Shown piece after piece: positions 16,818 through 41,190 of a stretch of DNA of 64,000 nucleotides. The stretch's first letter is position 1; each line of letters begins with the position of its first letter. Source of the stretch: Nitrospirae bacterium GWB2_47_37. GTDB lineage: Bacteria; Nitrospirota; Thermodesulfovibrionia; Thermodesulfovibrionales; Dissulfurispiraceae. The position numbers and the translations under genes were made by a program. The notes beneath the pieces are model-generated. The model did not search any database and was not told the origin of the DNA. It saw only the letters and a list, made by a program, of their open reading frames with translations. The stretch spans positions 1-64,000 of the forward strand of contig MHDU01000039.1 of assembly GCA_001803635.1 (NCBI GenBank), in the 5' to 3' direction.

Positions 16818-17237
16818 ATGATCTACACCGAAGACTATGACGACATATTGAGAAGGCTCGGGATCGAATATTTCATTCACGATGTGGGTTATGTTTCAAG
16901 CTTAATGTCGTGGTCAAAGGAAAACAAGGTTGACCTGAGCGAGCCTTACCAGCCCATGAAACTCATGACAACGCAGGACAATGTCCTGAAAATGGTAATT
17001 CAATCGGAAGTGAGCGAAGAGATGCTGGACGGCGTTATAACGAATCTCGCGATCCGCTGGTCGTTGAGGAACAACATCGCGGATCCGTCCGCGAAACTGA
17101 ACAGCGTCAAAAAAAGGCTTGTATTCTGCTTTCTAAAGGAATGCGCCGGAACCGTGAAAAACATCGGAGGAGACGAGCTTCTCGAAGACGAGTGGGCCGT
17201 AAATTCTATGGAGAAACTCGGTTTATTTAACGAATAG
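16818..17237 (+). CDS. Hypothetical 139-residue protein
   Basis: I do not recognise this soluble, mostly helical protein. It begins MIYTEDYDDILRRLGIEYFI, and its Cys residues (FCFLKECAG) are too few for a metal cluster. A strong GGGAGGAGG ribosome site precedes the ATG. It lies 21 bases after the membrane cytochrome gene and before the ferritin-like gene, so an accessory role in the same redox group is possible, with no direct evidence. Confidence 0.65.
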   Translation: MIYTEDYDDILRRLGIEYFIHDVGYVSSLMSWSKENKVDLSEPYQPMKLMTTQDNVLKMVIQSEVSEEMLDGVITNLAIRWSLRNNIADPSAKLNSVKKRLVFCFLKECAGTVKNIGGDELLEDEWAVNSMEKLGLFNE

Positions 17238-17296: not shown

Positions 17297-17800
17297 ATGA
17301 AAAAAGCAAAGGAAGATTCGAAGGAGTTTTTAAAGCTTATGAGGAACTGGCAGACGCTGGAGGACAAAACCATTGTAAGCGCCGTCGAGATGATGCGCAA
17401 GACAAAAAATCCCCTCGTAAAGATGACTATGGAAATGATCAAGCATGACTCCGAAAAACATAAGCTCATGCAGCAGATGATGATCGACAACATCACGAAG
17501 GAGGCGATCAGCATAGGCCCCGATGAGCTCAATGCCCTTTCGGACATGCTGAATTCCCATATGGAAGCCGAAGCCGAGTCCCTCTGTCTTGCGGACGAGG
17601 CGTTCAGGAACAGCGAGCTTTTCACCACCCGCTATCTCCTGTCCTGCCTTATAGCGGACGAGGCGAAGCATCACGGGATGATGAATCAGCTCAATGACCT
17701 GAAGAGGGCAACGGTAGCCACGTCAACAGGCGCACGATCGTACGGGTATATAGAGAGGCCGCCTTCGGATATCGAGCGGTCTCACGCAAAGCGCAAGTAG
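17297..17800 (+). CDS. Ferritin-like diiron protein
   Basis: A 167-residue four-helix protein. Metal-ligand-like motifs occur on successive helices: an early Glu (WQTLEDKTIVSAVEMM), HDSEKHKLMQ, HMEAEAESLCLADE and DEAKHHGMMNQL. These resemble the ExxH pairs of the ferritin/rubrerythrin superfamily. A role in peroxide or iron handling is likely. AGGAGGTGA precedes the ATG, and a promoter with TTGACA at 17248 and a poor minus-10 at 17270 lies upstream. It is followed by the CBS protein on the same strand. The last 30 residues, with Arg, Ser and Pro, look disordered. Confidence 0.7.
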   Translation: MKKAKEDSKEFLKLMRNWQTLEDKTIVSAVEMMRKTKNPLVKMTMEMIKHDSEKHKLMQQMMIDNITKEAISIGPDELNALSDMLNSHMEAEAESLCLADEAFRNSELFTTRYLLSCLIADEAKHHGMMNQLNDLKRATVATSTGARSYGYIERPPSDIERSHAKRK

Positions 17801-17831: not shown

Positions 17832-18281
17832 ATGTCGTGTATATGCGCAAAAGACATAATGCATCCGAGGATCAGTCTTCCCGCCAAGATGAAAGGCGAG
17901 GAACTCGTAGAAAAGCTCATGTGTTCTTACCCGGCGCTTCCCGTGGTAAACGACAATCTTGAGGTAATAGGCGTAGTTTCCGAATATGACGTATTCGGAG
18001 CGCTCGAAGAGGGAAGGACCATTCACGAGTTCAGCGCGGAATCCCTTATGACCTGCGGACATTCGGAGCACGGCGCGTGCGCTTCTCCGATAACGGTAAC
18101 CCCCGACGCCCCGATAGAGGCTATAGTGGATCTATTTTATCAGAATTCAAAAAGCCTCTCGGTCATTCCGGTGGTTGATAAGAAAAAGCTCGTGGGCATA
18201 ATCGGGAGAAAAAACATCATTAACGCCTTGGCCGAAAGGGGCTTCTGGGAAGAACACGAGTTCAAGAAAAGAACGCCGTAA
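17832..18281 (+). CDS. Tandem CBS domain protein
   Basis: A 149-residue cytosolic protein made of two CBS motifs. The first has CAKDIMHPRISLP and ALPVVNDNLEVIGVVSEYDV; the second has PITVTPDAPIEAIVDLFYQN, VIPVVDKKKLVGIIGRKNII. CBS pairs bind adenine nucleotides and sense energy state. Four cysteines (two in SCICA, MCSYP and MTCGHSEHGACAS) are unusual for the family and may add redox sensing. It has an AAGGAGG ribosome site and is followed by a strong terminator, closing this gene group. Confidence 0.85.
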   Translation: MSCICAKDIMHPRISLPAKMKGEELVEKLMCSYPALPVVNDNLEVIGVVSEYDVFGALEEGRTIHEFSAESLMTCGHSEHGACASPITVTPDAPIEAIVDLFYQNSKSLSVIPVVDKKKLVGIIGRKNIINALAERGFWEEHEFKKRTP

Positions 18282-18346: not shown

Positions 18347-18772
18347 ATGCGGAATTTCACAAAGTTTTTAGCGATAATCTTCATTATCGCCGCAGGCACG
18401 GCATTCGCGCAGGATTCGGACAAACACTCCGGCAAGAAGGTCTATAAGGCATTCGCCGAGCCGGACGGGCTCCAGAGGGTAAATATCGTAAGCGGAGAAT
18501 ATTTCTTCGACCCCGACCATATCATCGTGAAGGTCGGCCTGCCGGTGGAAATTCATATTAAAAAAGAAGCGGGCATTACGCCCCATAATATTATAATAAA
18601 CGCTCCTGAGGCCGGCATCGAGGTCAGGGAGAATTTAAGCACTGAGCCTGTGATCATTAAATTCACGCCTAAAAAGACCGGAAAATATCCTTTTTATTGC
18701 GATAAAAAGCTTCTGTTTTTCAAAAGTCACAAAGAAAGGGGCATGGAAGGCATCATCGAAGTGATAGAATGA
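18347..18772 (+). CDS. Exported cupredoxin-like copper protein
   Basis: A 141-residue secreted protein. The signal peptide ends at TAFA-QDS. The blue-copper ligands can be placed: His in GITPHNIIINAPE, then Cys in YPFYCDKKLLFF, His in KSHKERG and Met in RGMEGIIEVIE. This matches a type 1 copper site of the plastocyanin/azurin or oxidase-subunit II-like class. It would carry electrons in the periplasm or bind copper. It starts a three-gene unit with the LolA-like and membrane genes, which overlap or abut it. Confidence 0.82.
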   Translation: MRNFTKFLAIIFIIAAGTAFAQDSDKHSGKKVYKAFAEPDGLQRVNIVSGEYFFDPDHIIVKVGLPVEIHIKKEAGITPHNIIINAPEAGIEVRENLSTEPVIIKFTPKKTGKYPFYCDKKLLFFKSHKERGMEGIIEVIE

Positions 18773-19825: not shown

Positions 19826-19853
19826 TTGACAAACCCGTAAAATCTGCTATGAT
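19826..19853 (+). promoter_or_regulatory. Strong promoter of the short peptide gene
   Basis: TTGACA (19826-19831, consensus) and TATGAT (19848-19853, 5 of 6) have a 16-base spacer. It drives a leader of about 55 bases into the peptide gene at 19915. Confidence 0.75.
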
Positions 19854-19914
19854 TTTTTTATAGACACAGGCTATTACTGCACCACAATCCATAGGCAAAA
19901 GGAGGTGATACGGG

Positions 19915-20019
19915 ATGAAGAAAATATTGAACGAAAAAGCTCTCGCAAAAGAGGCGGCCCTCTGGGATAGTCTTAAAAAGGCAGCGCAGCAGAATCCCGG
20001 CAAGGTATGCCGCAAGTGA
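19915..20019 (+). CDS. Short precursor-like peptide upstream of a radical SAM enzyme
   Basis: A 34-residue peptide with a charged helical N-terminal part (KILNEKALAKEAALWDSLKK), then AAQQNPGKVCRK and TGA at 20017-20019. It has a dedicated promoter and a near-perfect ribosome site (AAAGGAGGTGAT), so it should be highly expressed. It is separated by a strong terminator from the SPASM radical SAM gene. This is the usual layout of a precursor peptide and its maturase. Past the TGA the frame continues with two more UGA codons (20026, 20035) to a fourth at 20086-20088, giving a U-x-S, U-x-S, U-x-C pattern if UGA is read as selenocysteine. Whether the peptide ends in CRK or is a longer selenopeptide cannot be settled here. 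No named family is claimed. Confidence 0.6.
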   Translation: MKKILNEKALAKEAALWDSLKKAAQQNPGKVCRK

Positions 20020-20024
20020 AACAG

Positions 20025-20065
20025 TTGAAAGAGCTGAAACTGCCGGTCGGCAGCGAATCTTTCAA
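20025..20065 (+). promoter_or_regulatory. SECIS-like hairpin with a GGUC tetraloop
   Basis: TTGAAAG (20025-20031) pairs with CTTTCAA (20059-20065). Above an internal loop, CTGCC (20040-20044) pairs with GGCAG (20049-20053) around GGTC. The second in-frame TGA (20026-20028) lies in the base of the stem and is 16 bases from the tetraloop. E. coli fdhF has the same apical GGUC at a similar distance from its UGA. No folding energy was computed; chance pairing is possible. Confidence 0.4.
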
Positions 20066-20112
20066 TCATGGCAGGGCGCGGTATTTGAGTTGCGCCCTGC
20101 CATGATTTTTTG
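20065..20112 (+). terminator. Intrinsic terminator between the peptide and radical SAM genes
   Basis: ATCATGGCAGGGCGC (20065-20079) and its exact complement (20092-20106) form a 15-bp stem with a 12-base loop, followed by TTTTTTG. It would give abundant short peptide transcripts and limited read-through into the maturase gene. Its first base is shared with the SECIS-like hairpin. Confidence 0.85.
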
Positions 20113-20126
20113 TTTAGCGAGGGGAT

Positions 20127-21179
20127 ATGGCGATAACCGAAGCTCATGAATTTTTCATTCAATGGCATCTTACCGAGAGATGCAATCTCCGCTGCACGCA
20201 TTGTTATCAGGACGGAGCAAAGACCGATGAATTTTCTCTGCCGGAGGCGATGGATGTCATCGGAGAGGTCTACGACTTAATCGATTCATGGTCCGAAACC
20301 TACGGCATCGGATTTTCTCCGAGCTTTAACATCACCGGAGGCGAGCCTTTTTTAAGGCACGACATCTTCGACATACTCGAAGAAATAGCCGGAAAGGGCT
20401 TCGATATTTACCTTCTCACAAACGGCATACTCATAAACCATGAAAAGGCTCAAAGGCTCGCAGATATAGGCATCAAAGGCGTTCAGGTGAGCATCGAAGG
20501 CCCCGAGGACATACACGATTCAATACGAGGTAAAGGCAGTTTCAAGGCGTCTATGAGAGGCGTTAAAAACCTCCTCGACTCAGGGCTGACAGTAACCCTC
20601 AACACCACGCTTTCCGATATTAACGCCGCAGGCTTTATGGATATGATAGAGATAGCCTCATCCCGGGGCGCACAAAAGCTCGGATTTTCGAGGCTTGTGC
20701 CTTCAGGAAGAGGCGCGGGGCTTTTAAGCCATATGCTCGGAACCGAAAGAGTAAAGGATTTATACGGGCATATCTTTTCCGCAAAAACCGACGGGCTTAC
20801 GATAGTCACCGGGGACCCGGTCGCCTCACAGATGAGGTCTTCTTCTGCCGCTGACGCCGGAAATATCGCGTGCGGGGGCTGTGCAGCAGGAGTTTCGGGA
20901 TTGACCATTCTATCGGACGGCGCTATCACGCCGTGCAGGAGGCTTCCCATCCCGATAGGAAATATAAGAACCGATTCCTTAAGAGAGGTATGGTCATGCT
21001 CCGACGTCCTCAATTCATTAAGAGACAGGGGGAAATACAAGGGCAAATGCGGGACATGCAACAAATGGGCTCATTGCAGGGGATGCAGGGCAATAGCATA
21101 CGCCTATTCTCAGTCAAAGGGCGAAAATGATTTCCTCGCCGAAGACCCCCAATGTTTTATAATAGGAAATGAATCCTAA
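20127..21179 (+). CDS. Radical SAM/SPASM peptide maturase
   Basis: A 350-residue iron-sulfur enzyme. The radical SAM cluster motif is CNLRCTHCYQ at residues 19-28, with NITGGEPFLRHD as the SAM-binding GGE motif and YLLTNGILI. The C-terminal SPASM domain has cysteines in ACGGCAAGVSG, ITPCRRLPIPIGNI, KCGTCNKWAHCRGC and DPQCFI, enough for auxiliary clusters. This architecture is typical of peptide-modifying enzymes such as PqqE, AlbA and the maturases paired with selenocysteine peptides. The immediate upstream 34-residue peptide is the likely substrate. The N-terminal FFIQWHLTERCNLRC reminds me of the SbtM group, but I cannot confirm membership. The ICMT-like gene overlaps its end by 11 bases. 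Confidence 0.85.
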   Translation: MAITEAHEFFIQWHLTERCNLRCTHCYQDGAKTDEFSLPEAMDVIGEVYDLIDSWSETYGIGFSPSFNITGGEPFLRHDIFDILEEIAGKGFDIYLLTNGILINHEKAQRLADIGIKGVQVSIEGPEDIHDSIRGKGSFKASMRGVKNLLDSGLTVTLNTTLSDINAAGFMDMIEIASSRGAQKLGFSRLVPSGRGAGLLSHMLGTERVKDLYGHIFSAKTDGLTIVTGDPVASQMRSSSAADAGNIACGGCAAGVSGLTILSDGAITPCRRLPIPIGNIRTDSLREVWSCSDVLNSLRDRGKYKGKCGTCNKWAHCRGCRAIAYAYSQSKGENDFLAEDPQCFIIGNES

Positions 21180-21750
21180 AGTACTCCTCGCACTCATAAC
21201 AATAATACTCTGGCCTGTGGTGCCTTTGTTCTGGGTACCGGTTCACGGGCTTTCAAGGTTTTTCAAAAAGCTCGGCATCTTCACGTATATAATGCCTCTG
21301 CTTACATGGCTGCCGCTGGCATACGTCATTTACATGAACCGTGAATTTCTTCTTGGATTCGCAACAGACCTGCCGCTAATTCTAAACATAATCGGTATTG
21401 TATTATTTATAGCCGGCACGCTTTTGCATATGTGGACAGGAAAACTTTTAGGACTCCTCGGGCTTATGGGACTGCCGGAAATCTCATCGAAACAGGAAGG
21501 ACGGCTCGTGGCGGAAGGCCCATTTTCGATTGTACGCCACCCTACCTATCTGGCGCATACGCTGATGTTTTCAGGGATCTTTTTAATGACGGAGGTGTTG
21601 ACTGTGGGAGTTCTTACATTTTCAGATTTTGTAATAGTCAATGCCCTTATCATTCCTCTCGAAGAAAAAGAGCTTTCAACACGCTTCGGCAGAGAATACG
21701 AAGAATATAAAAAACTCGTCCCCCGGAAATTCTTCCCGAAAATTTTATAG
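21169..21750 (+). CDS. ICMT/PEMT-like membrane methyltransferase
   Basis: A 193-residue integral membrane protein with four to five helices. The C-terminal signature of the isoprenylcysteine carboxyl methyltransferase/phospholipid methyltransferase superfamily is clear: SIVRHPTYLAHTLMFSGIFL, then IPLEEKELSTRFGREYEEYK. These enzymes methylate a carboxylate or lipid head group with SAM at the membrane. The start lies inside the end of the radical SAM gene, so translation is coupled. A role in methylating the modified peptide, for example at a carboxylate, would be new; lipid methylation is the conservative alternative. Confidence 0.82.
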   Translation: MNPKVLLALITIILWPVVPLFWVPVHGLSRFFKKLGIFTYIMPLLTWLPLAYVIYMNREFLLGFATDLPLILNIIGIVLFIAGTLLHMWTGKLLGLLGLMGLPEISSKQEGRLVAEGPFSIVRHPTYLAHTLMFSGIFLMTEVLTVGVLTFSDFVIVNALIIPLEEKELSTRFGREYEEYKKLVPRKFFPKIL

Positions 21751-40650: not shown

Positions 40651-41190
40651 ATGCCAAAATGGAATATAGACCCTGACCATTCGGTTGCGGCCTTTTCGGT
40701 TAGACATTTGATGGTAACGAACGTGCGCGGACAGTTCGGTAAACTTACGGGCACGATCAACTTCGATCCGTCCGATATAGCCGCGTCTTCCGTTGAATTA
40801 ACAATCGATGTTTCAAGCATTACAACCGGAATACAAAAAAGAGACGATCACCTGCGAAGCCCTGATTTTTTAGATGCGGAAAAATTTCCGAGCATCGTTT
40901 TTAAAAGCGTAAAGGCGGAAAGCATGGGAGGCAACAAAGGCAGGGTAACGGGCGGCCTCTCCGTTCACGGCATTACAAAACAGGTATCGCTCGATGTCGA
41001 ATTCTCCGGCCCTGTAAAAGCGCCCTTCGGAGGCGAGATATGCATGGGATTCTCAACGGAAACCGTGATCAACCGCGAAGACTTCGGCATAACGTGGAAC
41101 GAGCCGCTTGAAGGCGGCGGCGTAATGGTCGGCAGAGAATTACATTTGAATATCGATATAGAAGCGGACCTTATCAAGCAAGCCGGGTAA
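40651..41190 (+). CDS. YceI family protein
   Basis: A 179-residue lipocalin-like beta-barrel of the YceI family, which binds isoprenoid-type lipids. Family blocks: WNIDPDHSVAAFSVRHLMVT, FDPSDIAASSVELTIDVSSI, DFLDAEKFPSIVFKS and the ending REDFGITWN. There is no signal peptide, so it is cytosolic, unlike many YceI proteins. AAGGGGGAG precedes the ATG. It stands alone next to a solo repeat. Confidence 0.9.
   Translation: MPKWNIDPDHSVAAFSVRHLMVTNVRGQFGKLTGTINFDPSDIAASSVELTIDVSSITTGIQKRDDHLRSPDFLDAEKFPSIVFKSVKAESMGGNKGRVTGGLSVHGITKQVSLDVEFSGPVKAPFGGEICMGFSTETVINREDFGITWNEPLEGGGVMVGRELHLNIDIEADLIKQAG

Follow-up and report, generated by a model that had tools for sequence, protein, structure and literature searches.

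The window analyzed in this work is a stretch of 64,000 nucleotides (positions 1 to 64,000 of contig MHDU01000039.1, assembly GCA_001803635.1) from Nitrospirae bacterium GWB2_47_37. It harbors, on the forward strand, a short peptide gene followed by a gene for a radical SAM enzyme with a SPASM domain and by a gene for an ICMT-like membrane protein, which overlaps the radical SAM gene by 11 bases. The features of the locus are the following:

19826-19853, + strand: sigma-70-type promoter, TTGACA-16-TATGAT (consensus scan, 11/12 bases)
19900-19909, + strand: ribosome-binding site, AGGAGGTGAT (read from the sequence)
19915-20037, + strand: predicted selenopeptide precursor, 40 codons (70 aligned loci, diverged loci of other phyla, alignment A6)
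20017-20019, + strand: UGA1, predicted Sec35 (TGA in 70/70 aligned loci)
20026-20028, + strand: UGA2, predicted Sec38 (TGA in 70/70 aligned loci)
20035-20037, + strand: true stop, TGA here and TGA, TAA or TAG in other loci (free type changes)
20040-20053, + strand: SECIS-like hairpin, CTGCC-GGTC-GGCAG (hairpin scan of the loci, covariation, fit to the bSECIS model)
20064-20107, + strand: intrinsic terminator in the gap between the peptide and radical SAM genes (19-bp stem, T tail)
20127-21179, + strand: radical SAM/SPASM enzyme, 350 aa, presumed maturase (PF04055 and PF13186)
21169-21750, + strand: ICMT/PEMT/MddA-like membrane methyltransferase, optional neighbour (PF04191, 51 bits)

The promoter, the ribosome-binding site, the terminator and the SPASM radical SAM identity of the enzyme had been pointed out in an earlier note on this DNA, and all of them were found again in the present analysis. 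By chance, 4.1 promoter-like sites would be expected, and the scan returned four; those other than the one listed match at just 9 of 12 bases. The sequence AGGAGGTG was found 5' of most homologous peptides. The cassette described in the earlier note is a real locus, but its most important features were absent from that description, namely UGA1 and UGA2, both in frame, and the SECIS-like hairpin.

Further upstream, on the same strand, lie four genes (16818-17234, 17297-17797, 17832-18278 and 18347-18769), including those for a cupredoxin and a protein with a CBS domain. Some other genomes also have relatives of the CBS gene (8 loci) and of the ferritin-like gene (7 loci) in the vicinity of the peptide.

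Conservation of the Peptide beyond the First UGA

Starting from the ATG at 19915, the frame embeds 34 codons up to the first in-frame TGA, and the earlier note correctly delimited this open reading frame, taking CRK as the end of the peptide. The alignment of the DNA located 5' of the radical SAM orthologues revealed that conservation runs on beyond this TGA; indeed, all the 70 aligned loci exhibit the pattern K-TGA-[KNS][SGA]-TGA-[KR]-S, followed by a stop codon of any type, which in some loci comes one codon later. A peptide terminating at CRK is therefore ruled out, and the predicted end falls at 40 residues. In the window the 3' end reads, in frame, ...NPGKVCRK-UGA-N-S-UGA-K-S-UGA, and the whole product would be MKKILNEKALAKEAALWDSLKKAAQQNPGKVCRK-U-NS-U-KS-stop, in which the leader-like residues 1-31 precede Cys32-x-x-Sec35-x-x-Sec38.

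The constraint acts on the peptide frame. For codons 1-34, frame 0 gives a pN/pS of 0.34, versus 1.0-1.2 in the other frames; the residues between the two TGAs are also constrained in frame 0, and Ser40 is retained as AGC, AGT or, in one genome, TCG. When 25 peptides from the different groups were aligned, with Sec counted as Cys, Glu13, Cys32 and positions 35 and 38 turned out to be invariant, Lys39 nearly so, and position 17 was nearly invariably Trp or Phe. In agreement with the earlier note, which could name no family for the peptide, neither Pfam nor (up to an E-value of 10) NCBIfam returned any match to it. A profile search detected the peptide in 49 of the 176 genomes of the order and in 59 of the 396 genomes sampled from the phylum, the latter sample overlapping the former.

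The behavior of the three stop triplets is very different. The terminal one, in the first 50 loci, is TGA in 28 cases, TAA in 14 and TAG in 8, and a maximum-likelihood tree built from 60 partner enzymes requires at least 22 changes of its type. On the same tree UGA2 never changed and UGA1 did so just once, becoming TGC, a Cys codon, in L233. If UGA1 were an ordinary stop, its type should vary like that of the terminal stop, which is not the case. The only replacements of UGA1 that were seen are Cys codons: besides the TGC just mentioned, a TGT in the second of the two peptide copies carried by Proteobacteria bacterium SZUA-178. The first copy of this bacterium reads ...VKACRK TGA AAC GGT TGA AAA TCC TGA and is followed by CGCTGCCGGTCGGCAGC, which includes the GGTC hairpin; the second reads ...VKACRK TGT AAC GGT TGT AAA TCC TGA and is followed by CGCTGCCCTCAGCGG, in which the GGTC loop is lost. 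Thus, Cys codons occupy both Sec positions of the second copy, and the final TGA is retained. The conservation of the UGA codons, together with Cys codons in homologues, is the pattern expected of a bacterial selenoprotein, and the comparative data leave little doubt that codons 35 and 38 insert selenocysteine.

The Cys/Cys copy (L224:2946-3065) is located past the YceI-like gene, and the stretch examined contains no radical SAM gene that could be assigned to this copy. A related peptide was also observed 3' of a radical SAM gene (L248:4048 onward); it ends in C-RK-TGA-KS-TGA-TAG, and its second TGA may represent either Sec or part of a double stop.

The SECIS-like Hairpin and the Selenocysteine Machinery

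The hairpin of the window has the stem CTGCC/GGCAG and the loop GGTC, which lies 25 nt past UGA1 and 16 nt past UGA2. The SECIS of E. coli fdhF has a GGUC apical loop, and the likeness extends to other loci, three of which (L218, L219 and L222) have hairpins reading GTTGCAGGTCTGCAAC; the difference is that here one hairpin apparently serves two UGAs 9 nt apart. With plain mononucleotide shuffles as controls, a SECIS-like hairpin (loop GGTC or similar) was found in 98 of 100 loci versus 4.1 in the shuffles, and in 86 of the 100 the loop lies 15-18 nt past UGA2, versus 0.8. In the alignment of the stems, 89.8% of the cells are paired, and there are 30 compensatory double changes against 9.8 expected, a value reached in none of 500 shuffles and lower in slid versions; these covariation figures, which come from related sequences and do not include G174, are not to be read as probabilities. 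The position of the hairpin also fits the model of bacterial SECIS elements, which calls for a G in the first two loop positions and a spacing of 16-37 nt (PMC13188914). The evidence for the hairpin is comparative: Rfam returned no match to it, and the 62-nt stretch of the window folded alone gave a z of -0.97, which is not significant. Taken as a whole, the assignment of Sec to both positions, with a SECIS hairpin behind them, is strongly supported by the comparison of the loci.

Some loci depart from this scheme. The hairpin of G110 is imperfect, and L099 (G174) has no recognisable SECIS-like hairpin, though UGA1 and UGA2 are intact. In two more loci (L125 and L126, from G085 and G033) the SECIS-like loop lies 38 nt past UGA2, and an extra small hairpin, CCCGCAGTTGCGGG, follows the stop codon and precedes the SECIS-like one; it may shorten the effective distance between UGA2 and the loop.

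As regards the machinery for Sec insertion, the source genome harbors a tRNA-Sec (71 bits), SelA (625 bits) and SelB (391 bits). SelB was detected in 160 of the 176 genomes of the order and in 24 of the 27 carriers outside Nitrospirota. A clear tRNA-Sec match is missing in 7 of the 49 peptide-bearing bins, but six of these seven have SelB. The co-occurrence of the peptide with tRNA-Sec is uninformative as proof within the order because 144 of the 176 genomes have tRNA-Sec anyway.

Pairing with the Radical SAM Enzyme and Distribution

Orthologues of the radical SAM enzyme (57-96% identity) were found in 14 of the 59 relatives searched, i.e., other genomes of the order, and a conserved small frame lies 5' of the orthologous genes; its absence would have spoken against the earlier note, which had likened the locus to a precursor with its SPASM radical SAM enzyme. 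The two genes form a real conserved pair that co-occurs even when unlinked. In four genomes (G110, G111, G113 and G114) the peptide has no adjacent radical SAM gene and an orthologue (61-65% identity) is located elsewhere in the genome; the unlinked peptides keep Glu13, Trp17, Cys32, U35 and U38. Conversely, for closely related radical SAM loci with no adjacent peptide, the peptide was found elsewhere in 6 of 7 cases. In one further genome (G021) the contig ends directly after the peptide. A small precursor genetically paired with its enzyme is what is expected of a RiPP system, and, on the basis of these comparisons, a functional pairing of the peptide with the radical SAM enzyme appears strongly supported.

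According to the contig scan, the carriers are mostly Nitrospirota; the others belong to Desulfobulbaceae, Geobacter, Syntrophorhabdus, Syntrophaceae and Chloroflexota, plus one Actinomycetes and one Bacillota case, each of a single bin, and, since the carriers are apparently metagenome-assembled genomes, contamination of single bins is possible. Most of the diverged enzymes (41-46% identity) also have a precursor of like plan 143-215 nt upstream, and the precursors of Chloroflexota, Syntrophaceae and others exhibit the CxxUxxUK end, an example being MSTESREREARFFQRFKEAMAKSRVLARNCLA-U-KS-U-KGK. Overall, this end was seen in Nitrospirota, Desulfobacterota relatives and Chloroflexota, and in the single bins of Actinomycetes and Bacillota. 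The occurrence of the same pair in uncultured bacteria of several phyla suggests that it probably represents a new family of modified selenopeptides.

Near three of the loci of the next-closest radical SAM relatives (L023-L027, 38-41% identity), alanine-rich low-complexity frames were observed; read in another frame, these may be repeat peptides of the ACGX type.

The Partner Enzyme and the Neighbouring Genes

The enzyme possesses the CNLRCTHC (CxxxCxxC) motif and the SPASM cysteines (alignment A4). All the NCBIfam models examined scored below their cut-offs: AhbD, which together with NirJ is the top-scoring one, 194 bits of 500, ACGX (TIGR04340) 175 of 400, SbtM (TIGR04082) 147 of 350, PqqE 82.6 of 381, PapB 76 of 340 and SkfB 68.5 of 300. 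The top position of AhbD and NirJ, far under cut-off, makes a non-peptide substrate possible. The profile relatives in the PDB are SkfB, PqqE, anSME, the radical SAM protein 5wgg and, more weakly, SuiB, and the best Foldseek matches of the AlphaFold model (pLDDT 91) are SkfB, anSME, BlsE, PqqE and SuiB. The earlier idea of a peptide-modifying enzyme is in agreement with this picture, in that the closest solved folds (SkfB, anSME, PqqE and SuiB) mostly belong to enzymes of this kind. No extra domain was seen in the predicted model of the 350 residues; an RRE sits in many, not all, such systems.

No third gene is fixed among the 124 loci whose surroundings were inspected, and no conserved linked protease or exporter was found. 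In these loci, which count some genomes twice, the genes nearby include YceI-like (27), TrxB-like (20), ICMT-like (16), MqnC/E (14, one lineage) and thiol peroxidase-like (4) ones, the TrxB-like and peroxidase labels having been assigned by eye from the sequence. In other genomes, no neighbour is seen more often downstream of the radical SAM gene than YceI; in the window, a YceI-family gene (40651-41187) lies 20 kb off. The ICMT-like protein (NF040696, 47.7 bits, under the cut-off of 160) had been proposed as part of the cassette, and its co-conservation was suggested as a check: being unlinked in most loci, where YceI, MqnC/E or unrelated genes hold that position, it can be discarded as a core partner.

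Discussion

The data reported above lead us to propose that the locus probably encodes a Sec-containing precursor together with its modifying enzyme, of the radical SAM/SPASM type. According to this model, the ribosome would decode both UGA1 and UGA2 as Sec through one shared SECIS hairpin, placed 25 nt downstream of the former and 16 nt downstream of the latter, and the third UGA would act as terminator because by then the loop is just 7 nt away and the hairpin is presumably melted. The product would be a peptide of 40 residues with a helical, leader-like part and the C-terminus Cys-x-x-Sec-x-x-Sec-Lys. The radical SAM enzyme might recognise the leader and, with the peptide as its substrate, modify the Cys/Sec/Lys core; a selenoether or thioether cross-link and an oxazole-type oxidation are examples of what this modification might be. 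What is then set free might be a short selenopeptide with redox activity or the ability to bind metal.

Different explanations of the same locus can be put forward. If UGA1 were an ordinary stop, the conserved DNA beyond it might be an RNA element, or it might specify a second protein, MPQVKELKEL..., read in a different, overlapping frame, which in one family could supply the N-terminal end of the radical SAM enzyme. Indeed, Leu is well conserved in that frame, and family f4 and G076 have a radical SAM frame that runs uninterrupted from the ATG inside the peptide gene, so that the hairpin would fall there within the coding region of the enzyme. Such a product, though, would leave a change from TGA to TAA silent, and this synonymous change should occur; in 70 loci it was never found at UGA1 or UGA2, with the third stop varying freely. 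Moreover, Ser40 as TCG and Ser37 as TCC alter the other frame yet keep Ser, the UGAs are replaced by Cys codons, and in the window the other frame stops at 20105. The missing TGA-to-TAA changes and the switches of Ser codons contradict an other-frame main product, and we consider the whole idea extremely improbable. Hardly more credible is the possibility that the UGA/SECIS peptide is a selenium-sensing leader, in which readthrough under selenium-replete conditions would alter the terminator and thereby set the expression of the radical SAM gene. The strong terminator between peptide and enzyme in the window, preceded by two UGAs and one SECIS, speaks for such a device, but a simple scan detected terminators in just 7 of 34 homologous gaps; in addition, in four genomes the peptide is far from the enzyme gene with its key residues kept, and the conserved leader residues favour a product.

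A more serious, though in our opinion still unlikely, alternative accepts the Sec peptide and denies that it is a RiPP: the small peptide would function without any modification, in redox reactions, in metal binding or as a selenium donor, and the enzyme would act on another substrate, using the peptide as a partner, e.g., as reductant or selenium source. The C-x-x-U-x-x-U spacing is typical of redox and metal-binding arrangements, the genes for YceI, TrxB-like or peroxidase proteins recur nearby, the top models of the enzyme (far under cut-off) act on hemes, and no protease or exporter is linked. On the other hand, the conserved N-terminal helix with the invariant Glu13 resembles a leader, the structural neighbours are mostly peptide-modifying enzymes, and a co-occurrence as strict as this one is typical of an enzyme with its precursor. 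For these reasons we retain the modified selenopeptide as the preferred reading.

Precursors containing Sec and paired with radical SAM enzymes are already known from SbtA/SbtM (TIGR04081/TIGR04082), a selenobiotic thio/selenooxazole RiPP system in which SbtM oxidises Cys/SeCys substrates (PMC11002830). The two systems share a small Sec precursor with a SECIS and a SPASM radical SAM enzyme. They differ in the motif of the precursor, SGUG in SbtA (PMC13188914, Table 1) versus CxxUxxUK here, and in the enzyme, since the TIGR04082 profile has a length of 516 versus 350 aa here and the enzyme of the window reaches 146.6 bits of the 350 required (125-148 bits for the distant members, below cut-off as well); the locus therefore combines an enzyme under the TIGR04082 cut-off with a precursor that is neither of the TIGR04081 nor of the SGUG type. 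PqqA/PqqE also consists of a short precursor adjoining a SPASM radical SAM enzyme, and PqqE is a fold neighbour, but a Glu-Tyr pair stands there in place of the Sec residues, and neither the PqqE score nor the peptide, which matches no Pfam or NCBIfam family, places the locus in that system. The sactipeptide and ranthipeptide maturases (SkfB, CteB and PapB) and SuiB are the closest solved structures and share a chalcogen-rich core peptide; they are set apart by scores below the curated cut-offs and by the Sec in the core found here. The ACGX system and AhbD/NirJ are among the top models, far under their cut-offs of 400 and 500, and the repeats of the former are absent from the precursor. The catalogue of prokaryotic selenoproteins given in a 2026 review comprises 119 families, only one of which, selenobacteriocin, is comparable (PMC13188914). 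SbtM/selenobacteriocin was the sole precedent found in the open-licence literature; a description outside it is possible.

In its broadest form, which we regard as evenly poised, our interpretation is that of a so far undescribed, cross-phylum family of Sec-containing RiPPs. A single SECIS would serve to decode a pair of UGAs nine bases apart, a third UGA, lying too close, would terminate, and the enzyme would install a new selenium-centred modification on the CxxUxxUK core; the product would serve uncultured anaerobes as a selenium cofactor or for metal binding. Automatic gene calling would cut such peptides short at the first UGA. The UGA-UGA-UGA array, read as Sec, Sec and stop according to the distance from one hairpin, would be a clean natural test of SECIS geometry. 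Finally, a second family, unrelated to selenobacteriocin and spread over several phyla, would offer a handle on the selenium chemistry of radical SAM enzymes and on the use of selenium by uncultured anaerobes.
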